Virus record (IMG/VR): IMGVR_UViG_3300042691_032333
Span: 1 to 32,316 of that record
Origin: a virus
Strand: one strand, 5' to 3'
Length of the DNA: 32,316 bases
Below the pieces are notes generated by a model. It did not search any database and was not told where the DNA came from. It worked only from the letters and a program-made list of their open reading frames with translations. Position numbers and translations under genes: made by a program. Positions within the stretch are counted from its first letter, which is position 1. Each line of letters starts with the position of its first letter. Positions 69 through 10,261 of this stretch are shown here, piece after piece.

Positions 69-89
69 TTACATTTTAATTAAACATTT

Positions 90-449: not shown

Positions 450-450
450 T

Positions 451-708
451 ATGGAATTGATAGGGTTTATTGGAAGTTTTCTGTTAACAATCAATGCGAT
501 TCCAGAAGTTATTCGTACTATTAAAGATGGTCGGTGTCACATTGGATGGCCCATGTTGGTTCTTTGGTTTTTGGGTGAAATATTTATGACGATATATGCT
601 ATATATCTACACAATATACCACTCCTTATGAATTACGCATTTAATTTTTTTGTAGTAATTATTATGTTGTGGTACAAGATACTCACTCTTAAAAACAAAT
701 ATGAATAA
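451..708 (+). CDS. small PQ-loop/SWEET-like membrane protein
   Basis: This 85-residue protein has three predicted membrane segments (about 1-20, 33-53 and 57-76), the size of one PQ-loop/SemiSWEET unit. Segment 1 ends in INAIPEVIRTIKDGRCHIGWP, like the PQ-loop signature (Pro-Gln, then a basic loop and a second helix), here with Pro18-Glu19 instead of Pro-Gln. Such proteins work as dimers that move small solutes across the inner membrane. It starts one base after the thioesterase stop and overlaps the next gene by 8 bases, so the three probably form one translational unit. Substrate unknown; a generic three-helix protein is the alternative. Confidence 0.65.
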   Translation: MELIGFIGSFLLTINAIPEVIRTIKDGRCHIGWPMLVLWFLGEIFMTIYAIYLHNIPLLMNYAFNFFVVIIMLWYKILTLKNKYE

Positions 709-1273
709 CCTTATAGTTATTGGTCACCCAGATAAAAAAAGTTTTTGTTATAATGGTATTATGAAAACCATTAAACAAGAAATTGAAGTCGGTCAAGAAA
801 ACTTAGAAATTATTGATTTGTATAAAGACGATCTTTCAATTAAAAAGAAGGAAGTCATTAAACATTATCAAGAGCTTGTAAAATGGGCAGATCGTATTTA
901 TATTATCTCTCCTGTGTGGTGGTTTCGATGTACACCGTTGATGGAAGAATTTTTTGATGTGGTATTCACGCCAGGATTTGCATATAAATTCATGCCACTA
1001 TTTCCAAAGTATGGATATCCGAAACCACTCTTATCAAATAAGAAAGTTCGAACATACTTAACACACGGGGCACCAGCATTACCAGTATACATGTTATACT
1101 TCAATGCAGTAAAATTACGATTGTCTCTAGGTGTATATTCATTTGTATTTGGATGGTTTAAAGCAAAAACACGACAGTTTTGGAGTGTACCCTTCTGTAC
1201 AAATGATGAACGACAGAAAATGTTAGAAAAAGTAAAACGTGATGTACAAAAAGATTTGACAACACTAAGATAA
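701..1273 (+). CDS. flavodoxin-fold NAD(P)H oxidoreductase
   Basis: This 190-residue protein fits the Flavodoxin_2 / NAD(P)H:quinone oxidoreductase family (KefF, MdaB), FMN- or FAD-dependent enzymes reducing quinones with NAD(P)H. The N terminus NLIVIGHPDKKSF is the flavin phosphate-binding loop after strand 1. The segment IYIISPVWWFRCTPLMEEFFDVVFTPGFAY, at about residues 67-97, matches the family's P-x-WW-x-x-P-x-x-x-K-x-W-x-D-x-V-x-x-x-G-F-A-Y region; the usual Lys and Trp are replaced by Glu and Phe. A second conserved block, LTHGAPA, lies at about residues 120-126. It overlaps the preceding gene by 8 bases. A long antisense reading frame across this gene is a shadow. Confidence 0.82.
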   Translation: MNNLIVIGHPDKKSFCYNGIMKTIKQEIEVGQENLEIIDLYKDDLSIKKKEVIKHYQELVKWADRIYIISPVWWFRCTPLMEEFFDVVFTPGFAYKFMPLFPKYGYPKPLLSNKKVRTYLTHGAPALPVYMLYFNAVKLRLSLGVYSFVFGWFKAKTRQFWSVPFCTNDERQKMLEKVKRDVQKDLTTLR

Positions 1274-1279
1274 GTCATT

Positions 1280-1489
1280 ATGAAAGTAAGCGAACTAATT
1301 AAACTATTGGAAACGTTGGACCAAGATAAACGAGTAGTTATTAGTGGGTACGAGGGTGGTGTTGATGATGTCGATAATTTAAACATTACACGTATTTTAC
1401 TCAACGCCAATTCCGAATGGTATTACGGAAAGCATGAAGAAGTGTTTTTGGAAGGTCCATACGACGAAGAAGCATATATCATCGTATAA
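1280..1489 (+). CDS. small acidic protein, unknown function
   Basis: This 69-residue acidic protein starts MKVSELIKLLETLDQDKRVVI, a pattern common in small phage proteins (a helix followed by a 'P/D-x-x-V' strand). It has no membrane segment or catalytic motif. It begins 6 bases after the oxidoreductase stop and ends just before tRNA-Asn, so it closes the four-gene group starting at 90. No function can be assigned. Confidence 0.7.
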   Translation: MKVSELIKLLETLDQDKRVVISGYEGGVDDVDNLNITRILLNANSEWYYGKHEEVFLEGPYDEEAYIIV

Positions 1490-1492
1490 CAT

Positions 1493-1565
1493 TCCCAGAT
1501 AGCTCAGTCGGTAGAGCAGGTGACTGTTAATCACCGGGTCGGGGGTTCAAGTCCCTCTCTGGGAG
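1493..1565 (+). tRNA. tRNA-Asn(GTT)
   Basis: Acceptor TCCCAGA/TCTGGGA is fully paired. The anticodon loop CTGTTAA gives GTT, the T arm is GGGGG-TTCAAGT-CCCTC and the discriminator is G. CCA is not encoded. Confidence 0.96.
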
Positions 1566-1583
1566 CTTTTTATAGGAGAGTCT

Positions 1584-1979
1584 ATGTTGGAAACTATTTC
1601 ATTGATTGTTGGGGTTGCAAGTTCGTTAGTAACATTGATTGGGTATATAACCGATACAGATAAACATAAGCGAAACAACGCAGCACAATTGTTATCATTC
1701 ATCGGTGAGACGTTGGAAGAAGTAGTAGAAAAACTTAAAGTCAATGAAGTTCCACATGGAGCATGTGAAATTATTCAACAATGTGCACGAGATATACCAA
1801 CTACGCTGTCGGGGTTATTACCCGAATCTGAATTGCAAGAACTATCGGCTAAATTGGAATATGCACATCAAGTGGAACAATTAGTAATAACCACACAGCA
1901 GTATCCAGAAAGTTTAATAGAATTGGAAAAAGCAGTTGGTCAATTTAAAGTAGCAACACAATTGATGCAAATAAAATAG
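1584..1979 (+). CDS. hypothetical protein with N-terminal membrane segment
   Basis: This 131-residue protein has one hydrophobic segment (about residues 3-22, ISLIVGVASSLVTLIGYI), then a soluble, mostly helical acidic domain with few recognisable features. A ribosome-binding site (TAGGAG) lies about 8 bases before the ATG. It sits alone between tRNA-Asn and tRNA-Trp. I do not recognise the family. The membrane anchor suggests a cytoplasmic domain held at the inner membrane. Confidence 0.72.
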   Translation: MLETISLIVGVASSLVTLIGYITDTDKHKRNNAAQLLSFIGETLEEVVEKLKVNEVPHGACEIIQQCARDIPTTLSGLLPESELQELSAKLEYAHQVEQLVITTQQYPESLIELEKAVGQFKVATQLMQIK

Positions 1980-1985
1980 TAGTAT

Positions 1986-2057
1986 GCGTTCTTGGTGTAA
2001 TGGTAGCACAGCAGCCTCCAAATCTGCTAGGTGTGGGTGCGAATCCTACAGAGCGTG
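1986..2057 (+). tRNA. tRNA-Trp(CCA)
   Basis: Acceptor GCGTTCT/AGAGCGT pairs with G-U wobbles. The anticodon loop CTCCAAA gives CCA and the discriminator is G. The T loop reads TGCGAAT, with G in place of the normally invariant T55 (pseudouridine). Confidence 0.92.
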
Positions 2058-2064
2058 TTAGTTT

Positions 2065-2138
2065 GGCATCGTGGCGCGAGTGGTTTAGGCACTCCCCTCA
2101 GAAGGGAGCTTACGTTGGTTCAAATCCAATCGGTGCTA
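2065..2138 (+). tRNA. tRNA-Leu(CAG)-like, short variable loop
   Basis: Acceptor GGCATCG/CGGTGCT pairs throughout with wobbles. Anticodon arm CTCCC-CTCAGAA-GGGAG gives anticodon CAG, the T arm is GTTGG-TTCAAAT-CCAAT and the discriminator is A. The variable region is only CTTAC (5 nt), unlike normal class II leucine tRNAs, and the D stem is weak. Confidence 0.82.
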
Positions 2139-2164
2139 TGTTTACAGAGTTTAAATGAGACAAT

Positions 2165-2458
2165 ATGGCAGAACAAACTAAAACCACACAAGTGTTTCGT
2201 AAAATATGGTTAGGTGTTTTCGTCTTTGCGTTAATCATAGAAGCTTTGTCATTACCTCACGGACATCGTGATACATTATCTGAAACAATATGGGATCATG
2301 TACGATGGTCGTATTGGCGAATTTTGTTTTTACCTGGATGGACATGGTTAACATGGCATTGGATTTTACGCCGTGAACAAGTTATTGATTATCGTGATGG
2401 TATTGCCATTGCCATCGGATTAATATGGGCAATTGTAGAATTGGTAGTACGTAAATAA
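2165..2458 (+). CDS. small multi-pass membrane protein, unknown function
   Basis: This 97-residue protein has three likely membrane segments (about 13-30, 50-68 and 79-94). The middle one is rich in Trp (LFLPGWTWLTWHWILRR). No family is recognised. The stop codon TAA ends at 2458 and tRNA-Tyr starts at the next base, so the mRNA must be cut at the tRNA 5' end directly after the stop codon. It is probably expressed from the same long transcript as the surrounding tRNAs. Confidence 0.72.
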   Translation: MAEQTKTTQVFRKIWLGVFVFALIIEALSLPHGHRDTLSETIWDHVRWSYWRILFLPGWTWLTWHWILRREQVIDYRDGIAIAIGLIWAIVELVVRK

Positions 2459-2542
2459 GGGAGTGCTGCAGAGTTGGAGGACTGCACCAGACTGTAAATC
2501 TGTCGCTGAGAGGCCTAGTAGGTTCGAATCCTTCCACTCCCA
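2459..2542 (+). tRNA. tRNA-Tyr(GTA)
   Basis: Acceptor GGGAGTG/CACTCCC is perfect. The anticodon loop CTGTAAA gives GTA. The long variable arm is as expected for bacterial tyrosine tRNA, the T arm is GTAGG-TTCGAAT-CCTTC and the discriminator is A. Confidence 0.95.
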
Positions 2543-2545
2543 TAT

Positions 2546-2619
2546 CCGCATCAGGTGTAAGTGGTGTGCACGCTGCTCTGATAAAGCAGAGGTACTTGGT
2601 TCAACTCCAAGGATGCGGA
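2546..2619 (+). tRNA. tRNA-Ile(GAT)
   Basis: Acceptor CCGCATC/GATGCGG is perfect. D stem GTGT/GCAC, anticodon arm CTGCT-CTGATAA-AGCAG giving GAT, T arm CTTGG-TTCAACT-CCAAG, discriminator A. Position 8 is A instead of the usual T. Confidence 0.92.
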
Positions 2620-2624
2620 CTTAT

Positions 2625-2698
<74 letters not shown>

Positions 2699-2704
2699 CT
2701 GTAA

Positions 2705-2812
2705 GTTTATGTGATAGCTATTTGGAGCATCGGGTGAAATACCCCGGTAATGTAGTTCAATTCTACACATGCGCTGGGCAAGCGAAGAGGTTCAACTCCT
2801 CGTCACATAAAC
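2705..2812 (+). ncRNA. tRNA-like RNA with expanded D region (Leu-like)
   Basis: A perfect 10-bp terminal helix (2705-2714 with 2803-2812) encloses a T arm (GAGG-TTCAACT-CCTC), a class II variable-arm-like hairpin (CGCT-GGGCA-AGCG) and a perfect arm TGTAG-TTCAATT-CTACA that could be an anticodon arm (CAA in this register). Between acceptor and that arm lie 36 nt instead of about 19. They contain an extra hairpin (GCT-ATTTGG-AGC) and a segment resembling the D arm of the tRNA-Leu(TAA) at 5236 (GGTGAAAT..CGGTAA). It could be a degenerate leucine tRNA, a tRNA carrying an insertion, or a tRNA mimic. Confidence 0.6.
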
Positions 2813-2820
2813 TTTAATTT

Positions 2821-2903
2821 GGTGCGATGACTGAGTGGCTGAAAGTAGGAGTCTGCAAAACTCTAGGAGAAATCCCACGCCAGTTCGAATCTGGCTCGCA
2901 CCT
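2821..2903 (+). tRNA. class II tRNA-Cys(GCA)
   Basis: Acceptor GGTGCGA/TCGCACC is perfect. Anticodon arm GGAGT-CTGCAAA-ACTCT gives GCA, the T arm is GCCAG-TTCGAAT-CTGGC and the discriminator is T, the usual Cys identity base. The body looks like a serine tRNA: D arm ACT..GAGTGGCTGAA..AGT and a 14-nt variable arm with GGA-GAAA-TCC stem-loop. Ordinary tRNA-Cys is class I. Confidence 0.88.
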
Positions 2904-2918
2904 TTTATTGGAGATTAT

Positions 2919-3197
2919 ATGAAGGACATTTTGTTTGCAAAGCCAAAATCATTATCAGAAACAGAAGAACACAAAATCGTTAAACGAAAATGGTGGGCAG
3001 TTATATTACTGATTATTGGTGGTATCATGCTGGCGGGAAGAATTCCTAATGCACCACCAGCAATACCCTACGCATTATTTTTCTTTGGGCATGGTGGTAT
3101 GTTACATAGTTTTTGGAATAAGCATGATTATCCAATGGTTATTGTAAATTCTGTGTGGTTGTTGATTGATGTACTTGGTATAATTCGATGGATGTAA
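2919..3197 (+). CDS. small multi-pass membrane protein, unknown function
   Basis: The start is the ATG at 2919, 5 bases after a GGAG ribosome-binding site; an in-frame extension upstream runs through tRNA-Cys and is not coding. The 92-residue product has a charged, cytoplasmic-looking N terminus (1-22), then three hydrophobic segments (about 25-40, 47-63 and 72-90). It is not recognised as a named family. It overlaps the DUF1289 gene by 10 bases, so the two are likely translated together. Confidence 0.72.
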   Translation: MKDILFAKPKSLSETEEHKIVKRKWWAVILLIIGGIMLAGRIPNAPPAIPYALFFFGHGGMLHSFWNKHDYPMVIVNSVWLLIDVLGIIRWM

Positions 3198-3367
3198 AAT
3201 CCCCATGTATAAAGATATGTAAGTTACACGACGATGTTTGTGTTGGATGTTTTCGTACTATTGATGAAATTAAGAATTGGAAACACTCTTCCAAAAAAGA
3301 AAAATTACAAATACTTGACAATATAAAACAACGAGGTTATAATGTTATCGAAGATGACACCAAATGA
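3188..3367 (+). CDS. DUF1289-family Cys-rich small protein
   Basis: This 59-residue ORF starts at the ATG at 3188 inside the end of the preceding gene. Its N terminus reads SPCIKICKLHDDVCVGCFRT followed by IDEIKNW, the signature of the DUF1289 family: four cysteines in a C-x3-C-x6-C-x2-C arrangement and a conserved 'GC.R...EI..W'. Family members are short bacterial proteins suspected to bind a metal or Fe-S cluster; the biochemical role is unknown. The gene overlaps its upstream neighbour by 10 bases and the DsbA-like gene by 26, an unusually tight nest. The C-terminal half also carries a promoter-like sequence (3315-3343). Confidence 0.78.
   Translation: MDVKSPCIKICKLHDDVCVGCFRTIDEIKNWKHSSKKEKLQILDNIKQRGYNVIEDDTK
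3315..3343 (+). promoter_or_regulatory. consensus sigma70-type promoter inside DUF1289 gene
   Basis: TTGACA (3315-3320), a 17-bp spacer and TATAAT (3338-3343) match the consensus exactly. Transcription would start near 3350, downstream of the first possible start codon of the DsbA-like gene (3342) and just before a second in-frame ATG at 3354. Confidence 0.5.
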
Positions 3368-3593
3368 TAAGTTAAAATTAACTGCTGCATTAAAAGATAT
3401 GAGTACATCGATGACTCGTGTTGACGCGGAACGAGATTTGCAAAAGAATATCAAGGGTGATATTTGTAAAGAGTTGGATTTGAGTAAAAAGGTTTTTTCA
3501 AAATTAGCAAAGGTATATCACAGGCAGAACTTTGCTGATGAAGTAGCAACACATCAAGAGTTTGAAACATTGTACGAAGAAGTTACGAAGTAA
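3342..3593 (+). CDS. dsbA: DsbA-like dsDNA-binding late transcription protein
   Basis: This 83-residue protein resembles T4 DsbA, a small double-stranded-DNA-binding protein that assists gp55-dependent late transcription. From memory of that family, the shared pattern is an N-terminal helix with K-L-K, a central 'I..D...I....K.EL.[VL]..K.F..L...YH..N' stretch (here about residues 31-64) and an acidic C terminus ending in a 'LY[DE].V' motif (here TLYEEVTK). A GAGG ribosome-binding site precedes the ATG at 3342. A second in-frame ATG at 3354 could serve a transcript from the overlapping promoter. A gp55-like gene at 15355 supports a late-transcription role. Confidence 0.75.
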   Translation: MLSKMTPNDKLKLTAALKDMSTSMTRVDAERDLQKNIKGDICKELDLSKKVFSKLAKVYHRQNFADEVATHQEFETLYEEVTK

Positions 3594-3601
3594 TGTAGGT
3601 T

Positions 3602-3673
3602 GGAGCATTGGTCTATCGGTTAGGACGACAGCCTGTCACGCTGTAAGGACGAGTTCGACTCTCGTATGTTCCG
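3602..3673 (+). tRNA. tRNA-Asp(GTC)
   Basis: Acceptor GGAGCAT/ATGTTCC pairs with one wobble. The anticodon loop CTGTCAC gives GTC, the T arm is ACGAG-TTCGACT-CTCGT and the discriminator is G. Confidence 0.95.
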
Positions 3674-3688
3674 TTTTTGGAGATTACT

Positions 3689-4738
3689 ATGAAGGTATTG
3701 ATATTATCTGTTTGTGGTAAATTAAACGAACCTGAAGAAACAAAATATCTTAATTTATATTTTGCTTCACTCAAAAAGTATGTAGTTCCATTTTTTGAAA
3801 CTAAGGTTGTTTTACTGACAACGTATAAAATTGAAAATTTGGAAGATAGTTTACTTCGTAAACGAATCAAAGAATTTGAATTGGATGATGTGGTATCTCT
3901 ACATACAATTGATGATTTACAATTACCAATAAAATCATTAGAAATTATAAAATCCTATGATTGGTTTTCACGAATAGGTATGCATATGAATATTTTATAT
4001 GATTATGCTAAACTTAATAATTTTTTCGATGCAGATTGGATATTTCACACAGACACCGATAGTGAATTTTTACAAGATTTTTCTTCATGTTTAAACTCAT
4101 TAAATGAATTAAAAAAGGTAGAACCGGGGATATTTATTTCTCTGGCTGGAGATGCTTGGCCACCAAGTATAATATACGAGGGAACAGAATATCTTATAAA
4201 GCAACCGGATCGTGTTGATTTTTATGATGAAGAAACTGTTAGACGACAAGAGTTTATTGTAAAAATTGAAGAACGTAGATTACCAGAAGACGATTATAGA
4301 AAAAAACAAAATCATATAACGTTTTCACCGGCACAGATGAAAATTAGAAATGATTTTGTTGGTATGTCACGGAGAGCAGCAGACGTTTGTCAATTTAATT
4401 GGTCAACTGCATATTTTCCAACACATAACTTTCATGAATCGGAACCATTTGATAAGTTTTGGCCACAAAAAGCAATTCGTATCGAAGAACAGGGTACAGA
4501 TGTACGTATTGTAGATGTTCCAAAAATACATATAAATTATCACATGGGTGGTATGTTATTGTATAAATTTCAAAATAATGAACTTCCTGTAACAAAGATA
4601 CAATTTCAAGGATATTCACGAATGATGTTACATCATAGTTCGGGGTGGTTCCAATCTCACTATACGGAACGTTCGTTGGAATCTTTGAATGCAAACTATA
4701 GTGATACAAAAGAAATTTGGAATAAAGATTTTGAATAA
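3689..4738 (+). CDS. glycosyltransferase-like protein (GT-A type, DxD)
   Basis: The ATG at 3689 follows a GGAG ribosome-binding site by 6 bases. The 349-residue protein begins MKVLILSVCGKL, like a first beta strand, and carries HTDTDSEF at residues 120-127. D122-T-D124 fits the DxD motif by which GT-A glycosyltransferases bind the metal and nucleotide-sugar. Later features, such as AGDAWPPS near 155 and HINYHMGG in the C-terminal part, resemble acceptor-site loops but are not diagnostic. Phages use such enzymes on host glycans, DNA or virion proteins; the substrate is not readable. It lies alone between tRNA-Asp and tRNA-Ser. A DxD-containing protein of another class is the alternative. Confidence 0.62.
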   Translation: MKVLILSVCGKLNEPEETKYLNLYFASLKKYVVPFFETKVVLLTTYKIENLEDSLLRKRIKEFELDDVVSLHTIDDLQLPIKSLEIIKSYDWFSRIGMHMNILYDYAKLNNFFDADWIFHTDTDSEFLQDFSSCLNSLNELKKVEPGIFISLAGDAWPPSIIYEGTEYLIKQPDRVDFYDEETVRRQEFIVKIEERRLPEDDYRKKQNHITFSPAQMKIRNDFVGMSRRAADVCQFNWSTAYFPTHNFHESEPFDKFWPQKAIRIEEQGTDVRIVDVPKIHINYHMGGMLLYKFQNNELPVTKIQFQGYSRMMLHHSSGWFQSHYTERSLESLNANYSDTKEIWNKDFE

Positions 4739-4744
4739 AAGTTT

Positions 4745-4828
4745 GGAAGGTTCGCATAATGGTATTGCACCGGTCTACTAAACCGACGACCTTAATCGGT
4801 CATGTGGGTTCGAATCCCTCACCTTCCG
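4745..4828 (+). tRNA. tRNA-Ser(ACT)
   Basis: Acceptor GGAAGGT/ACCTTCC is perfect. Anticodon arm CGGT-CTACTAA-ACCG gives ACT. The class II variable arm is GACC-TTAATC-GGTC and the discriminator is G, all consistent with serine identity. A34 is very unusual for an AGY-reading tRNA, where GCT is normal. Confidence 0.88.
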
Positions 4829-4874
4829 TTATAATGTATTAAAATATAATTAATATCTATTTATAACGACCCCC

Positions 4875-4903
4875 TTGACAACAGTAACTCTATGATGTAT
4901 ATT
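4875..4903 (+). promoter_or_regulatory. sigma70-type promoter for downstream tRNA block
   Basis: TTGACA (4875-4880), a 17-bp spacer and TATATT (4898-4903). The following ACTAGTGTTGAGTGAA is nearly identical downstream of the promoter at 8721-8749 (ACCAGTGTTGAGTGAA), which argues that the element is real. It lies in a gene-free gap and points at tRNA-Lys. Confidence 0.72.
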
Positions 4904-4950
4904 ACTAGTGTTGAGTGAAACGAAACGATGTTTGACAACAGAAACACAAC

Positions 4951-5023
4951 GCCTCCATAACTCAATTGGCAGAGTAGCTGGCTTTTAACCAGTAAGTTGT
5001 AGGTTCAAGTCCTACTGGGGGCA
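4951..5023 (+). tRNA. tRNA-Lys(TTT)
   Basis: Acceptor GCCTCCA/TGGGGGC pairs with one wobble. The anticodon loop CTTTTAA gives TTT, the T arm is GTAGG-TTCAAGT-CCTAC and the discriminator is A. Confidence 0.95.
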
Positions 5024-5031
5024 TTTGTTGT

Positions 5032-5198
5032 AGAATCTACCCGCGGTCGGAACACGGTTCCCGCGTCCACACGATTTATTTCTCTATCGGCCCTTACGTG
5101 AGACACCACTACAACGGTGCATGGGAAGATACCGTAAGCACGCCCTCGTGAATGGAAAACATGTGTGAGGATGGCACCATGAAGAATAGGTAGATTCT
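5032..5198 (+). ncRNA. structured RNA A (about 167 nt), novel
   Basis: A perfect 10-bp helix (5032-5041 with 5189-5198) closes the region. Inside are a double hairpin (5042-5045/5062-5065 and 5049-5053/5057-5061) and a stem 5093-5098/5133-5138 capped by CACC/GGTG (5104-5107/5116-5119). GAGGATGGCACC near the 3' side resembles a motif in RNA C. It is followed by a small GGATG/CATCC hairpin before tRNA-Leu. No start codon with a credible ribosome-binding site opens a long frame here. Not a known family as far as I can tell. Confidence 0.6.
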
Positions 5199-5235
5199 TC
5201 TCTATAAAATGAGAGGATGTAGTATCATCCAATTT

Positions 5236-5318
5236 GCTCCGATGGTGAAATCGGTAAACACAGGAGACTTAAAATCTCCCGCCCCAAAGGCTTGTCGGTT
5301 CGATTCCGACTCGGAGCA
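5236..5318 (+). tRNA. tRNA-Leu(TAA)
   Basis: Acceptor GCTCCGA/TCGGAGC is perfect. Anticodon arm GGAGA-CTTAAAA-TCTCC gives TAA. A normal class II variable arm (GCC/GGC), T arm GTCGG-TTCGATT-CCGAC and discriminator A. Confidence 0.96.
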
Positions 5319-5335
5319 CTATTTATTAAGATGTT

Positions 5336-5408
5336 GCGGGTGTAACTCAGTTGGTAGAGTACATGCTTGCCAAGCATGATGTCGCGGGTTCGAGCCCCGC
5401 CATCCGCT
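5336..5408 (+). tRNA. tRNA-Gly(GCC)
   Basis: Acceptor GCGGGTG/CATCCGC pairs with a wobble. Anticodon arm CATGC-TTGCCAA-GCATG gives GCC, the T arm is GCGGG-TTCGAGC-CCCGC and the discriminator is T, typical for glycine. Confidence 0.96.
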
Positions 5409-5423
5409 TATACGGAGAATTAT

Positions 5424-6053
5424 ATGAATATACCATATACAAGTTTTTTAATCAATAAATTAGTTAGTGAAAATAATTATAAAAATTATTTAGAGATTGG
5501 AATTTCATCTGGAAATACATTTCGTCAAGTTATATGTGAAACAAAACACGGAGTAGATCCAAATGGTGGTGACCCTTCAAAACCAGATGTACCATCGTTT
5601 ATAACATATCCATATACGTCCGATGTGTTTTTTGAACAACACATTACGCAGAAATATGATATAGTGTTTATCGATGGATTGCATCACGCAGACCAAGTAT
5701 TACGTGATATATACAATAGTATTAAACACCTAAATGTAGGTGGTACAATTTTACTACACGATACAAAACCGTGGTCGGAATTGATGCAACGCAATCCACA
5801 ACCAGACGAAGTAGCAAGAGGTGGTATATGGACAGGGGATGTGTGGAAAGCTGTTGCAAAGTTTCGTAGTGTAGAAACAAAATACACATGTGAAACAATA
5901 GATTTTGATTTAGGAATTTCGGTTATACGAGAAGGTAATGCAGTACCAATTAGTATTCCATCTGATGAAGATTTAACATACGAATACTACTTGACAAATA
6001 AAGATTACATTTTAAATTTAGTATTATCCGATACATATTTAAATGGATATTAG
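5424..6053 (+). CDS. SAM-dependent methyltransferase (class I)
   Basis: The real start is the ATG at 5424, after CGGAGAA; a longer in-frame reading begins inside tRNA-Gly and is not coding. The 209-residue protein is a compact Rossmann-fold methyltransferase of the Methyltransf_24 type. Motif I is LEIGISSGNTF (residues 23-33). A post-I acidic loop around 42-47 contains Asp45. VFIDGLHH (81-88) is the motif II strand with a metal- or substrate-binding His pair, and LLHDTKPW follows at 110-117. In phages such enzymes often sit with glycosyltransferases and modify sugars, but the acceptor is unknown. Its TAG stop shares its last base with tRNA-Ala. Confidence 0.82.
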   Translation: MNIPYTSFLINKLVSENNYKNYLEIGISSGNTFRQVICETKHGVDPNGGDPSKPDVPSFITYPYTSDVFFEQHITQKYDIVFIDGLHHADQVLRDIYNSIKHLNVGGTILLHDTKPWSELMQRNPQPDEVARGGIWTGDVWKAVAKFRSVETKYTCETIDFDLGISVIREGNAVPISIPSDEDLTYEYYLTNKDYILNLVLSDTYLNGY

Positions 6054-6123
6054 GGCTCGTAAGCTAACGGGAAACTGACGCCTTTGCACGGCGTACTTGT
6101 GGGTTCGATTCCCACCGAGTCCA
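6053..6123 (+). tRNA. tRNA-Ala(TGC)
   Basis: Acceptor GGGCTCG/CGAGTCC pairs with one wobble. Anticodon arm ACGCC-TTTGCAC-GGCGT gives TGC, the T arm is GTGGG-TTCGATT-CCCAC and the discriminator is A. Its first base is the last base of the methyltransferase stop codon. Confidence 0.94.
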
Positions 6124-6132
6124 CTGTTAATT

Positions 6133-6218
6133 CCAAGGGTGGCCCAGCTTGTATACAAGTATACTCGCGCTTGGTAGTCGAGTTGTCCGACATTTTACGA
6201 AAGGGCTTCGTAGACAAC
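6133..6218 (+). ncRNA. structured RNA B (two stem-loops), novel
   Basis: The first element, 6133-6174, is closed by CCAAG/CTTGG and contains GGGTGGCC and a self-complementary CTTGTATACAAG. The second, 6182-6218, is GTTGTC/GACAAC with an inner perfect TACGAA-AGGGC-TTCGTA hairpin. It fills the gap between tRNA-Ala and tRNA-Val. There is no terminator-like T run, so it is probably released from the array transcript. Confidence 0.55.
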
Positions 6219-6221
6219 AAA

Positions 6222-6295
6222 GGACGGTTAGCTCAGTTGGTTAGAGCACTTCGTTTACACCGAAGGGGTCGGGGGTTCGAGCCCCTCACTGTCCA
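6222..6295 (+). tRNA. tRNA-Val(TAC)
   Basis: Acceptor GGACGGT/ACTGTCC pairs with one wobble. Anticodon arm CTTCG-TTTACAC-CGAAG gives TAC, the T arm is GGGGG-TTCGAGC-CCCTC and the discriminator is A. Confidence 0.96.
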
Positions 6296-6315
6296 CTTTA
6301 CATTAGGAGGATATT

Positions 6316-6525
6316 ATGAAAGCACGTGTAGTTGAAATGTTACGAACGCAAGCAGAAGCAGAACGACAGAAGGCACTTCTCTCATTGGACTTGTTGATGA
6401 ATGTTCCTGTTGGGATTGGTGACCATTCTACCGGTGATTTCTATAAGAACGCAGAAGAAGCATTACAGATGCTTGTTGATGCCGAAGATAAGTTGGAAAC
6501 ATTGCATAAATATTTTTCTGAATAA
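6316..6525 (+). CDS. small helical protein, unknown function
   Basis: This 69-residue ORF is preceded by a strong AGGAGG 7 bases before the ATG. The product is almost entirely predicted helix, with a short break around GIGDHSTGD (residues 34-42). This two-helix layout (1-32, then 43-68) could form a hairpin or coiled coil. No membrane segment and no recognised family. It is the only protein gene between tRNA-Val and RNA C. Confidence 0.72.
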   Translation: MKARVVEMLRTQAEAERQKALLSLDLLMNVPVGIGDHSTGDFYKNAEEALQMLVDAEDKLETLHKYFSE

Positions 6526-6531
6526 AAAATA

Positions 6532-6645
6532 AAAGATGTTATGCGTAAAAGGAACAGATAGATATTGGACGAGGGTGGCACCTCATAATGCAGGTTTAAA
6601 GTAAGAGCCAATCCTAATGTTCTGCCACCGGCCTCTGACATCTTT
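6532..6645 (+). ncRNA. structured RNA C with pseudoknot, novel
   Basis: Nested helices: 6532-6539/6638-6645 (AAAGATGT/ACATCTTT), 6552-6556/6618-6622, 6564-6568/6608-6612, and hairpin GAGG-GTGGCA-CCTC at 6571-6584. The hairpin's GGTGGCA (6574-6580) is exactly complementary to TGCCACC at 6623-6629, so a pseudoknot or an alternative state is possible. The hairpin sequence GAGGGTGGCACC resembles the core of the T-box motif (AGGGTGGNACC). The TA-rich stretch after the upstream gene does not code. Confidence 0.6.
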
Positions 6646-6649
6646 AAAT

Positions 6650-6850
6650 TTGGGTGGCTCCCTCAAAGGAAACTGTCGTCAAGGCGTACCTTGAACATCC
6701 AATAGTGCTGATACAGGGGGCGAAACAGCACTGGCAAAATCGGTAGCAAACAAGAACTGAAATAGGTTCCGTCACTACCGTCGTGTTTACTTTCCGAGTT
6801 CACGGATGCAAACTCCGACGAAGATGAGGGCCTTCGTAAAAAAGACCTCG
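6650..6850 (+). ncRNA. structured region D (multiple hairpins), novel
   Basis: A series of hairpins fills this gap with no protein gene: GGG-TGGCT-CCC (6652-6662); AAGG-CGTA-CCTT (6681-6692); GTGCTG/CAGCAC (6705-6710/6726-6731); CGGTAG/CTACCG (6741-6746/6775-6780) with inner GAAC/GTTC; CGTCG/CGACG (6779-6783/6816-6820) with inner GAGTT/AACTC; and CGAAG/CTTCG (6819-6823/6832-6836). It ends just before tRNA-Gly(TCC). It may be one RNA or several processed pieces; boundaries are uncertain. Confidence 0.5.
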
Positions 6851-6852
6851 CC

Positions 6853-6924
6853 GCACGTGTCATATAATGGCCATTATCCTAGCCTTCCAAGCTAGAGACG
6901 CGGGTTCGATTCCCGCCACGTGCT
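6853..6924 (+). tRNA. tRNA-Gly(TCC)
   Basis: Acceptor GCACGTG/CACGTGC is perfect. Anticodon arm CTAGC-CTTCCAA-GCTAG gives TCC, the T arm is GCGGG-TTCGATT-CCCGC and the discriminator is T. Confidence 0.96.
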
Positions 6925-6926
6925 CT

Positions 6927-7015
6927 AAACATAACGATAACCACCAACCCACTGGTAGTAGGCAGACAGAACGAATGGAATGTCCTATGTCGTAAGTCCT
7001 ATCGTTATGTTTTTC
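6927..7015 (+). ncRNA. structured RNA E with 13-bp closing helix
   Basis: A perfect 13-bp helix (6927-6939 with 7000-7012) encloses about 60 nt containing ACCA/TGGT and GACA/TGTC pairings. The 3' arm runs into TTTTTC, so the element could also end transcription. It begins two bases after tRNA-Gly(TCC) and precedes the small gene at 7041. Confidence 0.55.
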
Positions 7016-7040
7016 TTTATGTAATACAACCAACGAGGTC

Positions 7041-7175
7041 ATGATGATTGCACAAATTATTTTGTTCTTAGGTATAATTGCGGGTATTATCTCATTATCT
7101 CTTTGCTGGGCATCTGGAATAGATTATATGAAATCTAAGCACCCCGATTACAAGGGTGATGATTTTCTTAATTGA
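7041..7175 (+). CDS. 44-residue single-pass membrane protein
   Basis: A short ORF with CGAGG 6 bases before the first of two consecutive ATGs. The product has one strong membrane segment (about residues 3-23, MIAQIILFLGIIAGIISLSLC), then a charged tail ending HPDYKGDDFLN. No family is recognised. Its position between two structured RNAs in the tRNA array is typical of other small membrane genes here. Confidence 0.6.
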   Translation: MMIAQIILFLGIIAGIISLSLCWASGIDYMKSKHPDYKGDDFLN

Positions 7176-7178
7176 TTA

Positions 7179-7448
7179 GTAGTACAGCAGGACGAGTCTT
7201 ACTCGGTTAGTGGTCGTATGGAAAGGCATCTGAAAACTGTAAAGTGGTTCTGTTGAGGAGTTGTAATAGTGGTGACGCGAATAATCGTACCCATCACCCC
7301 ACAATACAGCTAAAACCCCCTGGGGTTAGGATGAATAACGACGATGTATAGGGGTGGTCATTGCCCGACGATTTCGGGGTGATACACAGATAAGAGTTGC
7401 AACTACTTATCACCCGATTGCAGGACAACACCTTTCCCGCTGTACTAC
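7179..7448 (+). ncRNA. structured RNA F (about 270 nt), novel
   Basis: A perfect 10-bp helix, GTAGTACAGC (7179-7188) with GCTGTACTAC (7439-7448), closes 270 nt without a protein gene. Inside are CGAGT-CTT-ACTCG next to the closing stem, a GTGGTGA..TCACC.CAC pairing, a CTAAAACCCC/GGGGTTAG hairpin, and a GGTGATA/TATCACC stem near the 3' side that includes a self-complementary GTTGCAAC. I looked for the conserved blocks of RNase P RNA, tmRNA and 6S RNA and did not see them. Confidence 0.62.
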
Positions 7449-7488
7449 ACATACTCCCCGTGGGCATACATGGGTGATAGGTAAATAG

Positions 7489-7517
7489 GTCTTGGTGCTC
7501 AACATGCCGGCCAAGAC
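7489..7517 (+). ncRNA. perfect 7-bp hairpin after RNA F
   Basis: GTCTTGG (7489-7495) pairs with CCAAGAC (7511-7517) around a 15-nt loop. There is no T run, so it is not an ordinary terminator. It may protect the 3' end of RNA F or belong to a separate small RNA before tRNA-Leu(CAA). Confidence 0.4.
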
Positions 7518-7545
7518 AACAGAATGATAATTGATAATGTTTTAC

Positions 7546-7619
7546 GCCCTTGTGACGGAATTGGCATACGTACAGGTCTCAAAAACCTGGTTTTGTGGGT
7601 TCGACCCCCACCGAGGGCA
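7546..7619 (+). tRNA. tRNA-Leu(CAA), short variable loop
   Basis: Acceptor GCCCTTG/CGAGGGC pairs with one wobble. Anticodon arm CAGGT-CTCAAAA-ACCTG gives CAA. The D arm GACGGAATTGGCA is leucine-like, the T arm is GTGGG-TTCGACC-CCCAC and the discriminator is A. The variable region is only GTTTT, not the long class II arm. Confidence 0.9.
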
Positions 7620-7623
7620 TCAT

Positions 7624-7698
7624 AGAGGATTAGCGTAGTCCGGTTATCGCGTCTGCTTTGGGAGCAGAAGGTCGGGGGTTCGAATCCCTCATCCTCTA
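7624..7698 (+). tRNA. tRNA-Pro(TGG)
   Basis: Acceptor AGAGGAT/ATCCTCT is perfect. Anticodon arm TCTGC-TTTGGGA-GCAGA gives TGG, the T arm is GGGGG-TTCGAAT-CCCTC and the discriminator is A. Confidence 0.95.
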
Positions 7699-7714
7699 TT
7701 TAATGGAGAAGTAA

Positions 7715-8380
7715 ATGCGAGTACTAGTATTTTCTACACCACGAAGTTGTAGTTCTTATGTGATACACATACTATCGAATGTGTTTGATATAAAAAATTA
7801 TAACGAATTATTTGACCAATCGGTTAAACCTGAAGAGTTACCAGAGTTGGTGGAAACTAAATTGTATGGTACCGACGATTACGCAGTAAAGTTCATGTCG
7901 GGTTATTTTACAATGGGTTGGTTGGATTTTGATGATATTAAATGGGATATGTTTGACCACATAGTGTTTACCGAACGAGATGATATTACATCGCACATTG
8001 CAAGTTGGTACGCTATATTTTCTTACAATCAAGATTTAAATCAAAAGTTAGTACGTGGTGAAGATGTAGTAGAAGATATACAAGATAGATTTTTTGATAA
8101 TGAATTAATTTCGTTTAAAGAAACGTTTAAAAATTATAACGTATACAAAAATAAACTATTGAAATTGTATCCAGAAAAATGTATTACGTTAAAATATGAA
8201 TTATTTCAAAAACCTATCGCAGAATATTTGCCTATCTTAAATGAAATAACAAAGTTTAACTTTGAAGAAAAACATCTGTATGAGAAAATACGTAGAAAAA
8301 TAGACTACAGAAAAGTTTTTTCCAATTATGACAAACTTGAAGAAATAGTAACCTCTTGGGGAAATGTACATGATAATTGA
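7715..8380 (+). CDS. sulfotransferase-like P-loop protein
   Basis: This 221-residue protein starts with MRVLVFSTPRSCSSYVIHIL. Residues 6-14 (FSTPRSCSS) match the 5'-phosphosulfate-binding loop of PAPS-dependent sulfotransferases (usually 'xxPRSGTT/S'), with Cys for the common Gly. The segment VFTERDDITSHIASWYA, at about residues 89-105, fits the 3'-phosphate-binding region (R..x..S..S). Such enzymes move sulfate from PAPS to a sugar or other hydroxyl. A GGAG ribosome-binding site precedes the start. It overlaps the following NTF2-like gene, suggesting joint translation and perhaps one pathway. The acceptor is unknown. Confidence 0.75.
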   Translation: MRVLVFSTPRSCSSYVIHILSNVFDIKNYNELFDQSVKPEELPELVETKLYGTDDYAVKFMSGYFTMGWLDFDDIKWDMFDHIVFTERDDITSHIASWYAIFSYNQDLNQKLVRGEDVVEDIQDRFFDNELISFKETFKNYNVYKNKLLKLYPEKCITLKYELFQKPIAEYLPILNEITKFNFEEKHLYEKIRRKIDYRKVFSNYDKLEEIVTSWGNVHDN

Positions 8381-8699
8381 TAATATAGTAAATGAATACT
8401 TCGATGCATTTACCAAAAAAAATATAGGACGATTGTCGGAACTATATCACGATGATGTTTCATTAAATGAATGGAATTCGTCTATCTTCGAAGGTAAGTC
8501 TGCAGTCATTGAAGCAAATAAAAAGTTATTTGAACAGTTTGAAAAAATTGCAATAGTAGTAAAGACAAAAGGAATTACAGCAAATCGTTCTATTAATGAA
8601 ATTTTAGTTGTCTTGGATGGAACAAGTGTTAATGTTGTAGACGTAATCGAAATTGTGGATAATAAAATAAAAAATATAGTAGCATACAGAGGATTTTAA
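8370..8699 (+). CDS. NTF2/SnoaL-like small protein
   Basis: About 109 residues with the hallmarks of an NTF2-like fold: an N-terminal helix, then F.....GRLSELYHDDVSLNEWN, a GKSAVIEANKKLFEQF helix, and alternating strands to the end (INEILVVLDGTSVNVVDVIEIVDNKIKNIVAYRG). Members are small isomerases, hydrolases or binding partners with a cone-shaped pocket. The ATG at 8370 has GGGGAA at good spacing; the ATG at 8364 would add two residues but lies too close to it. It overlaps the sulfotransferase-like gene by 11 bases and may act on the same product. Confidence 0.68.
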   Translation: MIIDNIVNEYFDAFTKKNIGRLSELYHDDVSLNEWNSSIFEGKSAVIEANKKLFEQFEKIAIVVKTKGITANRSINEILVVLDGTSVNVVDVIEIVDNKIKNIVAYRGF

Positions 8700-8720
8700 T
8701 CAATCCTTAACAAAAGACGC

Positions 8721-8749
8721 TTGACAATGGGGTACAAACTATGTATATT
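8721..8749 (+). promoter_or_regulatory. sigma70-type promoter for tRNA-Glu block
   Basis: TTGACA (8721-8726), a 17-bp spacer and TATATT (8744-8749), followed by ACCAGTGTTGAGTGAA, nearly the same as after the promoter at 4875. The leader ends with a GAGATA/TATCTC hairpin (8802-8823) just before tRNA-Glu. Confidence 0.75.
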
Positions 8750-8833
8750 ACCAGTGTTGAGTGAATGACGGTGACCCGAAGCACAGTCGAGGGAATTAAA
8801 TGAGATAACGTGCAAAATATCTCAACCGTATAT

Positions 8834-8905
8834 GCGGCGTTCGTCTATCGGTTAGGACATGGCCCTTTCAAGGCCAGAAGGCGGGTTCGATTCCCGCACG
8901 CCGTA
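8834..8905 (+). tRNA. tRNA-Glu(TTC)
   Basis: Acceptor GCGGCGT/ACGCCGT pairs with one wobble. Anticodon arm TGGCC-CTTTCAA-GGCCA gives TTC, the T arm is GCGGG-TTCGATT-CCCGC and the discriminator is A. Confidence 0.95.
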
Positions 8906-8913
8906 CTTAGCAT

Positions 8914-8978
8914 CACGGTAGTAATGATATCTTACTCGTAATCCGTGAGCAGTCCACCGCCTAGTCGTGCCGGTGGAC
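8914..8978 (+). ncRNA. structured RNA G (two hairpins)
   Basis: CACGG (8914-8918) pairs with CCGTG (8943-8947). It is followed by a perfect 8-bp hairpin GTCCACCG/CGGTGGAC (8952-8959/8971-8978) with an 11-nt loop. It fills the gap between tRNA-Glu and tRNA-Ile(TAT) and has no coding frame. Confidence 0.5.
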
Positions 8979-8983
8979 ACTAA

Positions 8984-9058
8984 CCGCCACGAGCCAGCTA
9001 GGTTGAAGGTGCCGATCTTATAAATCGGAGATGCCGGGTTCAAATCCCGGGTGGCGGA
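8984..9058 (+). tRNA. tRNA-Ile(TAT)
   Basis: Acceptor CCGCCAC/GTGGCGG is perfect. Anticodon arm CCGAT-CTTATAA-ATCGG gives TAT, the T arm is CCGGG-TTCAAAT-CCCGG and the discriminator is A. It would read the ATA codons that are frequent in this genome. Confidence 0.95.
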
Positions 9059-9103
9059 CTGGTTATGTACATTTTCAATAGTAACCCTTGTATAGTAGTT
9101 ATC

Positions 9104-9177
9104 GGTCCCTTAGCTCAGTCGGTTAGAGCAGCGAACTCATAATTCGAAGTGCGGGGGTTCAAGTCCCTCAGGGACCA
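9104..9177 (+). tRNA. tRNA-Met(CAT) or tRNA-Ile2(CAT)
   Basis: Acceptor GGTCCCT/AGGGACC is perfect. Anticodon loop CTCATAA gives CAT, the T arm is GGGGG-TTCAAGT-CCCTC and the discriminator is A. The body resembles bacterial tRNA-Ile2 (lysidine-modified CAT) at least as much as elongator methionine tRNA; the sequence alone does not settle which. Confidence 0.9.
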
Positions 9178-9191
9178 CTTTGGAGAAACAA

Positions 9192-9284
9192 ATGCCACAT
9201 CCACGAAAATGCGGTAAAGGTCGTAGAAAAGTAGGTTCTAAGAAACGAAGAAATCGTTGGAAGAACAGAAAACGTAAACATTAA
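9192..9284 (+). CDS. 30-residue, extremely basic peptide
   Basis: A short ORF with GGAG 8 bases before the ATG, between tRNA-Met and RNA H. The product, MPHPRKCGKGRRKVGSKKRR followed by NRWKNRKRKH, has 16 Lys or Arg in 30 residues, one Cys and one Trp. It has the look of an arginine-rich RNA-binding peptide or a tiny ribosomal-protein-like factor, but I cannot name a family. The ribosome-binding site and unbroken basic composition argue for a real gene. Being embedded in an array of tRNAs and structured RNAs makes an RNA partner plausible; that is inference. Confidence 0.6.
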   Translation: MPHPRKCGKGRRKVGSKKRRNRWKNRKRKH

Positions 9285-9292
9285 AATATTCT

Positions 9293-9427
9293 CGTCAACT
9301 TCGTAGAGTGATTTGACGTTAAATTCAGAACTCTACCGTCCGACCTATCTGACGTAGAGATAGGTGCTTGGCAACGTGTCGGATGTTGCAAAAGGTTAAG
9401 GGGAGCGGGTCTAGACCGCGCGACATC
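9293..9427 (+). ncRNA. structured RNA H with H-type pseudoknot
   Basis: CGTCAA (9293-9298) pairs with TTGACG (9313-9318). The loop's GTAGAGT (9303-9309) pairs with ACTCTAC (9330-9336) downstream, giving a classical H-type pseudoknot with perfect stems of 6 and 7 bp. It is followed by TCCGA/TCGGA enclosing CCTATCT/AGATAGG (9344-9350/9358-9364) and a GCGG/CCGC hairpin (9405-9408/9416-9419). GATGT/ACATC may close the 3' part. It precedes tRNA-Gln. Confidence 0.55.
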
Positions 9428-9467
9428 CTTGGGTAATTGGAAACTACCTCAATTGTCACCCCTCTAT

Positions 9468-9539
9468 TGGCCCATAGTATAACGGTTATTACGGCGGACT
9501 TTGGATCCGCATATCATGGTTCGATTCCATGTGGGCCTA
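9468..9539 (+). tRNA. tRNA-Gln(TTG)
   Basis: Acceptor TGGCCCA/TGGGCCT has an unpaired T1-T72 end, compatible with the weak first pair preferred by GlnRS. Anticodon arm GCGGA-CTTTGGA-TCCGC gives TTG, the T arm is CATGG-TTCGATT-CCATG and the discriminator is A. Confidence 0.94.
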
Positions 9540-9543
9540 TAAC

Positions 9544-9612
9544 GCGGTTTTGGTGTAATGTAGCACGGTTGGCAACCAGCTGACAGGTCCGGTGCAAGTC
9601 CGTGAAACCGCT
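9544..9612 (+). ncRNA. tRNA-like RNA without a normal anticodon loop
   Basis: The acceptor GCGGTTT/AAACCGC is perfect and the D arm GTG-TAATGTAG-CAC matches that of tRNA-Trp minus one G of the D-loop GG pair. The T loop TGCAAGT has the same G55 oddity as tRNA-Trp. The anticodon region pairs as GTTGGC/GCTGAC with only AACCA in the loop, or has A instead of T at position 33. It may be a decayed tRNA-Trp copy or a tRNA mimic. Confidence 0.6.
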
Positions 9613-9627
9613 CTTTATTGTTTTTGT

Positions 9628-9699
9628 CGCAGAGTAGAGCATCGGTAGCTCGCCACGCTCATAATGTGGAGGTAGGTGGTTCGACTCCACCCTCTGCCA
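9628..9699 (+). tRNA. initiator-type tRNA-fMet(CAT)
   Basis: The first acceptor pair is mismatched (C1 against C72) with the other six paired (GCAGAG/CTCTGC), the hallmark that lets initiator tRNA be formylated. Anticodon loop CTCATAA gives CAT. The D arm GAGC-ATCGGTA-GCTC and following CGCC resemble bacterial initiators. T arm GGTGG-TTCGACT-CCACC, discriminator A. Confidence 0.82.
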
Positions 9700-9726
9700 T
9701 GTAGTAAAATTTAAAAGGAGAACTTT

Positions 9727-9903
9727 ATGCGTAAATTTATGATTATGGCAGTACTGGGAGTAACAGCGTGTTCAGGTGGTGAAACAAAGAGTACAGACAC
9801 TCCGGTGGTTGTAATCGATAGTACATCAACACCATCAGATACATTAACTAAGTTACCTACCGATACAACATTCCTACCGCCAGATACGTCGATAGCACGG
9901 TAA
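9727..9903 (+). CDS. 58-residue predicted lipoprotein
   Basis: A short ORF with AGGAG 8 bases before the ATG, too short for most gene callers. The N terminus MRKFMIMAVLGVTACSGG is a typical lipoprotein signal: Arg-Lys, a hydrophobic core and the lipobox V-T-A-C with Cys15 as the lipidated residue. The mature part is a short Thr/Ser/Asp/Pro-rich stretch, like a flexible spacer. After cleavage it would be anchored in the envelope with its tail in the periplasm. Phage lipoproteins of this size often act in superinfection exclusion or lysis; neither is shown here. Confidence 0.68.
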   Translation: MRKFMIMAVLGVTACSGGETKSTDTPVVVIDSTSTPSDTLTKLPTDTTFLPPDTSIAR

Positions 9904-9905
9904 TA

Positions 9906-9989
9906 ATAAGAATGACACCGTGCGAGGTGTGACGCACTTGTTGTGGTGGCAGGAAGAACAGAATACTGTTTGAAAGGTGTCATTCTTAT
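9906..9989 (+). ncRNA. structured RNA I with 14-bp closing helix
   Basis: A perfect 14-bp helix (9906-9919 with 9976-9989) encloses hairpin GTGCG/CGCAC (9920-9924/9933-9937) and hairpin AACAG-AATA-CTGTT (9957-9970), giving a compact multi-branch RNA of 84 nt. It starts three bases after the lipoprotein stop and ends four bases before tRNA-Ser(TGA). There is no strong T run after the 3' arm. Confidence 0.62.
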
Positions 9990-9993
9990 ATTT

Positions 9994-10076
9994 GGAAGTA
10001 ACCCGGCTGGATGAGGAACTTGTCTTGAAAACAAGCGGGCCGAAAGGTCTTGGGGGTTCGAGTCCCTCTGCTTCCG
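9994..10076 (+). tRNA. tRNA-Ser(TGA)
   Basis: Acceptor GGAAGTA/TGCTTCC pairs with one wobble. Anticodon arm CTTGT-CTTGAAA-ACAAG gives TGA. A class II variable arm (GGCC-GAAA-GGTC), T arm GGGGG-TTCGAGT-CCCTC and discriminator G. Confidence 0.95.
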
Positions 10077-10083
10077 TTGTAAC

Positions 10084-10156
10084 GCCATCATAGCTCAGTT
10101 GGTAGAGCAGCTGATTTGTAATCAGCAGGTCGGGGGTTCAAGCCCCTCTGGTGGCT
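10084..10156 (+). tRNA. tRNA-Thr(TGT)
   Basis: Acceptor GCCATCA/TGGTGGC pairs with one wobble. Anticodon loop TTTGTAA gives TGT, the T arm is GGGGG-TTCAAGC-CCCTC and the discriminator is T. It is the last tRNA of the array. Confidence 0.95.
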
Positions 10157-10186
10157 CTGAAATCAATCTAGTGTTATATTTATAAA

Positions 10187-10217
10187 GGACTCGCACCTTA
10201 ATGGTGGAGTCCTTTTT
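10187..10217 (+). terminator. intrinsic terminator closing the tRNA array
   Basis: GGACTC-G-CACC / GGTG-GAGTCC with loop TTAAT forms a 10-bp stem with one bulged G, followed by TTTTT. It lies 30 bases after the last tRNA and upstream of the hsp20 leader. Confidence 0.88.
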
Positions 10218-10261
10218 CCGTGGCGCTCGTGGTGAGGCCACATAACCATAGGAGGTCAATT

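Follow-up and report, generated by a model that had tools for sequence, protein, structure and literature searches.

A new family of structured RNAs in the tRNA arrays of large tailed phages

Comparison of six natural variants shows a conserved structured RNA on the plus strand of a phage tRNA array, which is closed by a terminal helix (P1) and carries branches inside. It occupies positions 7179 to 7448 of the window, i.e., of the whole 32.3-kb virus record analysed here (IMG/VR record IMGVR_UViG_3300042691_032333, 32,316 nt). A preliminary description had proposed a functional RNA closed by a 10-bp helix at this locus, and covariation together with a natural recombinant strongly supports this proposal. 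Judged from sequence comparison, the RNA represents a new non-coding RNA family in the tRNA arrays of large tailed phages, although its kind is already known. It is probably a stable, structured RNA that is liberated from the transcript of the tRNAs and functions in trans.

Genomic context and distribution

The window contains 23 tRNA genes predicted by ARAGORN and one additional tRNA gene, cut at the left end, that was recognised by Rfam. The array is followed by genes encoding an Hsp20-like protein, an endonuclease, and a baseplate wedge protein. Since the baseplate protein is 37-40% identical to its counterparts in the Microcystis phage Mel-JY01 (190 kb) and the Flavobacterium phages 'immuto' (160 kb), the window is on sequence grounds a fragment of a large tailed phage. 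The RNA is located in an intergenic stretch of 370 nt (7176-7545), and no ORF is common to all variants, in agreement with its earlier designation as a gene-free stretch.

A search that started from the Hsp20 gene collected 28 loci from related phages; the protein encoded at 7715-8377, a neighbour of the RNA, gave no relatives as bait. The whole IMG/VR collection was scanned with the patterns GATGAATAACGACGAT, GATTGCAGGACAACACC, GTGGTCGTATGGAAAGG, and AGTTGCAACTA-gap-GATTGCAGGA. Eleven further contigs with the RNA were found in IMG/VR, all of which are recovered by GTGGTCGTATGGAAAGG and by AGTTGCAACTA-gap-GATTGCAGGA; the patterns GATGAATAACGACGAT and GATTGCAGGACAACACC recover 8 to 10 of them, with one-base breaks in some variants. 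Five motif patterns and one exact-arm pattern revealed no other true member in IMG/VR. The exact-arm pattern with a gap of 235-265 nt had 0 matches in this collection, the arms or the length being different in every other variant. Including the window, the 12 contigs, all carriers being fragments, represent a set of only six distinct variants with lengths of 194-270 nt:

W (window), 270 nt
L006 type, 225 nt
L037, 226 nt
L038/L039, 194 nt
L048, 233 nt
L049/L051/L052, 239 nt

A covariance model of the family (R1) gives one match per record with 194-223 bits (201 bits for W), and over ~0.4 Mb of related loci it detects nothing else but a weak reverse-strand echo. Cultured phages (INPHARED, 50,697 phage records) yielded either no matches or chance matches of 32 nt, and the plasmid collection contained no meaningful match to the RNA. 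In GTDB genomes, a 17-mer had 12 exact matches, none of which scores as a family member with the profile. The best of these (L062) is situated inside a 491-codon open frame, and L058, read by eye, lacks the other blocks; the GTDB matches thus look like chance.

All carriers have arrays with many tRNA genes, in which the RNA is always located between tRNA genes or small ORFs, in five out of six variants downstream of tRNA-Gly(UCC). In one phage (L003, L004, L006, L007) it lies between tRNA-Met and tRNA-Leu. The first paired base is found 1-2 nt past the 3' end of the upstream tRNA in L039 and L006, and in L037, L048, and L051 the stop codon of the upstream ORF falls inside the 5' arm. Downstream, the RNA is followed by a second small RNA and tRNA-Leu in W, by tRNA-Leu in L006 and L037, by an ORF in L039 and L048, and by tRNA-Thr in L051. 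The overlap with the ORF stop in three variants and the position inside a transcription unit would suit a cis-acting leader or attenuator that controls whichever gene or tRNA comes next in its own transcript. Given that the downstream neighbour differs between variants, that a terminator hairpin with T run is absent downstream of the RNA, and that P1 closes the whole RNA whatever comes after, we consider such a role unlikely.

In the related phages L002, L012, and L020, tRNA-Gly(UCC) and tRNA-Leu(CAA) are situated close together and the whole RNA is absent. Due to these relatives the RNA is, as far as gene content tells, accessory and not essential. The preliminary description had named loss of the complementary arms between retained tRNAs as evidence against its proposal; the three phages do lack the RNA as a whole, but no relative keeps the RNA without its arms.

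Structure and covariation

The features of the RNA and its upstream neighbour are as follows, in window coordinates:

7041..7175, plus strand, 44-aa ORF (by translation) immediately upstream of the RNA, stop 3 nt before P1
7179..7448, plus strand, complete structured RNA (270 nt, variant W) with homologues in 11 further contigs
7179..7188, plus strand, 5' arm of the closing helix P1, G-C/A-U compensatory change at pair 4, U-G and G-U in relatives
7193..7205, plus strand, hairpin H1 (CGAGT-CTT-ACTCG), two pairs with three standard pair types each, CTT loop invariant
7210..7217, plus strand, predicted 5' strand of P2, GTGGTCGT, pairing with 7338-7345, RNAalifold helix in 6/6 variants, one wobble change, weak covariation
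7218..7226, plus strand, invariant internal loop ATGGAAAGG, 100% conserved in six variants
7227..7231, plus strand, predicted 5' strand of P2b, CATCT, pairing with GGATG at 7329-7333, one-sided consistent changes (A-U to G-U, U-G to C-G)
7232..7313, plus strand, optional arm CTGTA...TACAG (alignment A2)
7314..7327, plus strand, hairpin H2 (AACCC/GGGTT), 4/5 pairs changed on both sides across variants
7328..7345, plus strand, conserved segment AGGATGAATAACGACGAT (3' strands of P2b and P2), two copies in L006/L037
7354..7387, plus strand, hairpin H3 (GTGGTCAT...GTGATACAC) with tip CCCGA-CGATT-TCGGG, double changes A-U to G-C in the stem and G-C to A-U in the tip
7389..7411, plus strand, hairpin H4 (GATAAG-AGTTGCAACTA-CTTATC), one stem pair with double change A-U to G-C, tip invariant
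7396-7403, plus strand, palindrome GTTGCAAC in the H4 tip, invariant
7412..7438, plus strand, conserved 3' segment ACC(C/T)GATTGCAGGACAACACCTTTCCC, all but two positions invariant in six variants
7439..7448, plus strand, 3' arm of P1, change in L037 restoring the pair with the swapped 5' arm

As described before, the arms GTAGTACAGC (7179-7188) and GCTGTACTAC (7439-7448) are perfect reverse complements, and on folding the probability of P1 amounts to 0.96-1.0. A 10-bp pair is, however, present by chance in 3.9% of the dinucleotide shuffles of 7176-7545, and the 10.2-kb array contains 11 such pairs compared to 3.1 in shuffles (11 were reached in 0/200). As a lone observation the arm pair is weak, since chance alone would give the array about 3 pairs and 7176-7545 one with a likelihood of 4%. 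The folding with shuffled controls that had been suggested earlier gave a divided answer: P1 forms, but the folding energy is ordinary on the plus strand (z of -1.2 to -1.9 in the window, compared to -3.4 on the minus strand). In the relatives z ranges from -1.4 to -2.9, and the minus strand sometimes folds better. Free-energy z-scores were rejected as proof of the element, as they separate neither the plus from the minus strand nor the RNA from shuffles. Due to the unremarkable folding energy of the plus strand, we relied on the comparison between relatives.

The conserved stems with compensatory changes that the preliminary description had sought in related phage contigs are present in the six variants, the compensatory changes being distributed over five helices. 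Of all pair cells, 98.9% are standard, and the covariation score is 0.182 versus 0.104 in shuffles (0/500). Eleven cells are changed on both sides versus 3.1 in shuffles (0/500); with partners slid by 1-3 columns, 0 both-side-changed pairs are left. H2 and the H3 tip contribute five more compensated pairs (four and one, respectively), for which the strands were aligned manually, as MAFFT displaces H2 by one. P1, P2, P2b, and H3 include U-G or G-U pairs, which on the opposite strand are A-C mismatches; since G-U pairs form on the plus strand only, this strand is the functional one, as for the tRNAs.

A natural recombinant bears on P1 directly. In L037, the upstream ~250-260 nt and the 5' arm GTAATATGGC match L051, and most of the body agrees with L006, as do the 129 nt that begin with the 3' arm. 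Over these 129 nt, L037 differs from L006 by a single C to T change. This change affects precisely that base of the 3' arm whose partner is altered in the swapped 5' arm, so that the broken pair is restored. The simplest reading of these sequences is that the closing helix was maintained by selection after recombination. The mosaic flanks of L037 and the patchy distribution in close relatives might also be ascribed to a mobile or intron-like RNA element (a group I intron relic or similar) jumping between arrays. This is very improbable, as the RNA has no Rfam intron match, encodes no protein, and never interrupts a tRNA or an ORF. The constant place of five variants after tRNA-Gly(UCC) rather argues for inheritance and exchange by recombination in the flanks.

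The supported fold, derived from these comparisons, consists of P1, H1, a two-helix module P2/P2b holding H2 and the optional arm, H3, and H4. Within the module, the P2 core pairing GUCGU/ACGAC and the P2b pairing CAUCU/GGAUG are plausible but unproven, since their changes are one-sided and consistent. Along with the palindrome they vary little or not at all and are hence beyond the reach of covariation; single-sequence folding favours P2 only in L006, L037, and L039. A pattern letting P2 vary returned five extra matches, all lacking a model score or tRNAs, and therefore provided no covariation test for P2. The loop sequence GGAAAGG (7220-7226) is complementary to CCUUUCC (7431-7437), a 7-bp match with a chance of ~3% that makes a pseudoknot possible.

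The hairpins named in the preliminary description fared differently. CGAGT-CTT-ACTCG is confirmed and covaries, and of CTAAAACCCC/GGGGTTAG the AACCC/GGGTT part holds and covaries as well. In the window GGTGATA and TATCACC do complement each other, but L006, L037, and L039 have not retained this stem; the pairings supported instead are GTCAT/GTGAT and GATAAG/CTTATC.

The optional arm comprises ~80 nt in W and ~40 nt in L048/L051, and is absent in L006/L037/L039. In L006 and L037, a second P2/P2b/H2 module, including a copy of the P2b 5' strand, replaces the H3 tip and is identical to the first module in 45 of 61 positions. With a module that is duplicated and an arm that varies, core and periphery are thus separable.

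The core is 80-94% identical between relatives, a tRNA-like level, compared to ~68-80% for a large part of the coding DNA nearby. The blocks that do not vary comprise AUGGAAAGG and GGAUGAAUA(A/G)CGACGAUGUAUAGGGGUGGUC as well as AGUUGCAACUA at the tip of H4 and, in the 3' segment, the surroundings of GAUUGCAGGA. Just outside the RNA, the sequence is unalignable in several comparisons. This contrast, with long unpaired or loop blocks invariant in six variants, is hard to reconcile with a processing spacer, i.e., a structured filler that aids cuts by RNase P, RNase Z, or RNase E and is roleless after release. Relatives encoding the same tRNAs without the RNA speak against a spacer, too. Its proponents could refer to the RNA abutting tRNA 3' ends in L006 and L039 and to the closing helices of many other inter-tRNA stretches of the array, yet we regard it as quite improbable.

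Relation to known RNA families

At gathering scores, Rfam has no match inside the RNA in the window; RNase P, 6S, GOLLD, ROOL, and OLE remained unmatched at E up to 5 (window 6500-7560), and the shortest variant alone (L039, 194 nt) had no Rfam match at E up to 10. Neither ARAGORN nor Rfam predicts a tRNA or tmRNA inside 7179-7448. Of the earlier suggestion of a functional RNA such as RNase P RNA or 6S RNA, to be checked with Infernal against Rfam, the functional RNA stands and the named families do not. The argument from size fails because the ~80-nt arm of the window is optional: 270 nt is the length of the longest variant, and the shortest complete one has 194 nt. In case of 6S RNA (RF00013), there is no covariance-model match and the supported structure is multibranched, unlike the long hairpin of 6S RNA with its open central bubble. 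The RNA nevertheless fits the general kind of structured non-coding RNAs in phage tRNA arrays, as it combines a conserved secondary structure showing compensatory changes with a position among phage tRNA genes.

Further candidates were rejected. For a hammerhead, CUGAUGA occurs in L006, L037, and L039 without a GAAA partner after the stem, and the motif is absent in W, L048, and L051. The T-box-like sequence AGGGGUGG is at least in part explained by H3 pairing and has no Rfam support. With regard to Y RNA or YrlA, a TROVE (Ro60) protein was found in 0 of 13 carrier records, which are contig fragments, and in the control genome; no partner gene of the RNA was found in the carrier fragments.

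Bacterial RNase P RNA is marked by a P4 helix with the CR I and CR V sequences and a bulged U. The RNA shares with it a terminal closing helix and a GGAAAG near the 5' end that is complementary to a segment before the 3' arm. We take this complement, the helix it crosses, and GAUGAAU before the 3' strand of that helix to resemble P4, P2, and J18/2, respectively. A strongly reduced and divergent RNase P-like catalyst or cofactor, maturing or binding tRNAs in the service of the phage's own array, would accordingly have a core pseudoknot of GGAAAGG (7220-7226) and CCUUUCC (7431-7437) that crosses P2, the 3' strand of which is directly preceded by GAUGAAU. However, this topology was noticed after the fact, and the covariance models of bacterial RNase P RNA (RF00010/RF00011) do not match. 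By eye only GGAAAG is common to both, CCUUUCC being a plain complement that forms a 7-bp helix without bulged U; the conserved ACAGAA and the specificity domain are not seen. An RNase P-like nature is therefore far-fetched, with hardly any probability.

The tRNA gene cluster of phage T4 yields the stable non-tRNA RNAs C and D ('species 1 and 2') of about 120-140 nt, the function of which is unknown. As small RNAs from a phage tRNA cluster they resemble the RNA described here, the stability of which is predicted, but they are shorter; homology was compared indirectly through the 50,697 phage records, which hold no meaningful match.

The nearest kind is given by GOLLD and ROOL, large structured RNAs that occur in the tRNA islands of phages and prophages and assemble into cages made of RNA alone (PMC12286853). 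Common to them and the RNA are the tRNA-array niche, conserved loops, and variable peripheral parts. The RNA could thus be a small cousin of these assemblies that multimerises via kissing loops: its invariant palindromic tip GUUGCAAC is carried on a covarying stem, and a duplex of two such loops was computed at -16 kcal/mol, although the tip is only suggestive of a multimer, since the palindrome could equally be a protein site or pair intramolecularly (UUGCA, 7418-7422). With 194-270 nt the RNA is also much smaller than many GOLLD members, which often exceed 800 nt, and it lacks sequence or covariance-model matches to GOLLD and ROOL, or to OLE in Rfam. We rate this kinship as rather unlikely.

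Proposed function and further elements of the array

Release from the tRNA transcript and action in trans remain the preferred reading. The RNA is likely transcribed together with the tRNAs and excised by the enzymes that process them, as suggested by its start 1-2 nt after a tRNA in L039 and L006. RNase Z would cut at the 3' end of the upstream tRNA and RNase P at the next tRNA downstream, and P1 would then seal the molecule, enabling independent folding and survival. More tentatively, and with clearly lower confidence, the released RNA may act in trans by binding a protein or another RNA, as a decoy or scaffold that engages a protein of the host or the phage in the course of infection, in translation take-over or counter-defence. 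The candidate site for this binding is the internal loop AUGGAAAGG/GAAUA, which is invariant and belongs to the module present twice in two variants; self-pairing via the palindromic tip may occur and possibly result in a dimer. By analogy, counter-defence would be a plausible context, given that defence by tRNA cleavage can be blocked by tRNAs of phages (PMC11555353). Those tRNAs likewise are array-borne RNAs that serve the phage and offer a possible functional setting, but the RNA itself is not a tRNA and has no tRNA model match in 7179-7448.

Many more likely structured RNAs are situated between the tRNAs in window 1-10219, where closing helices exceed chance and are conserved in other phages; about ten more such RNAs appear to be present in the array. 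Right after the 270-nt RNA, a second small RNA (7455-7535; L002:6938-7015) is composed of the hairpin CCGTG-GGCATA-CACGG and a covarying stem with loop TGCTCAACATGCCG, and its GGCAT and ATGCC could kiss. L002 has this second RNA without the 270-nt RNA. An element of ~86 nt at 6927-7012, with the closing helix AACATAACGATA/TATCGTTATGTT, is 94% identical in L006.

Two elements are tRNA-like. The one at 2703-2814 has a T-arm-like GAGGTTCAACTCC and an overlong closing helix AAGTTTATGTGA/TCACATAAACTT, is 93% identical in L049/L051/L052, and received no ARAGORN or Rfam call. The other, at 9543-9613, with acceptor GCGGTTT/AAACCGC and an odd T arm, was missed by ARAGORN; L039 and L013 share it with 86% identity, and in several relatives a tRNA-Gly(UCC) is called at the corresponding position. 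The intergenic stretches 5032-5198, 6125-6221, 9285-9466, and 9906-9989 are ~70-88% conserved in related arrays, those at 5032 and 9906 with closing helices. At 9192-9284, a very basic 30-aa peptide (MPHPRKCGKGRRKVGSKKRRNRWKNRKRKH) is encoded, and several related loci are ~74-85% identical to the DNA around it (~9192-9283). Two promoter-like leaders at 4875-4919 and 8721-8765 (TTGACA ... ATGTATATTAC(T/C)AGTGTTGAGTGAA), which are nearly identical (96% alike over 25 nt), are probably separate promoters within the array.

Few structured RNAs are known from phage tRNA islands, and the RNA family is an undescribed and well-supported addition to them, with L037 as a natural recombinant that strongly supports the closing helix. 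Considering the roughly ten more such RNAs apparent in the array, large phages may keep in their tRNA arrays a whole reservoir of RNAs used during infection that await study. Should the RNA indeed counter host defence or assist tRNA maturation, it would help to explain why these phages carry such arrays.
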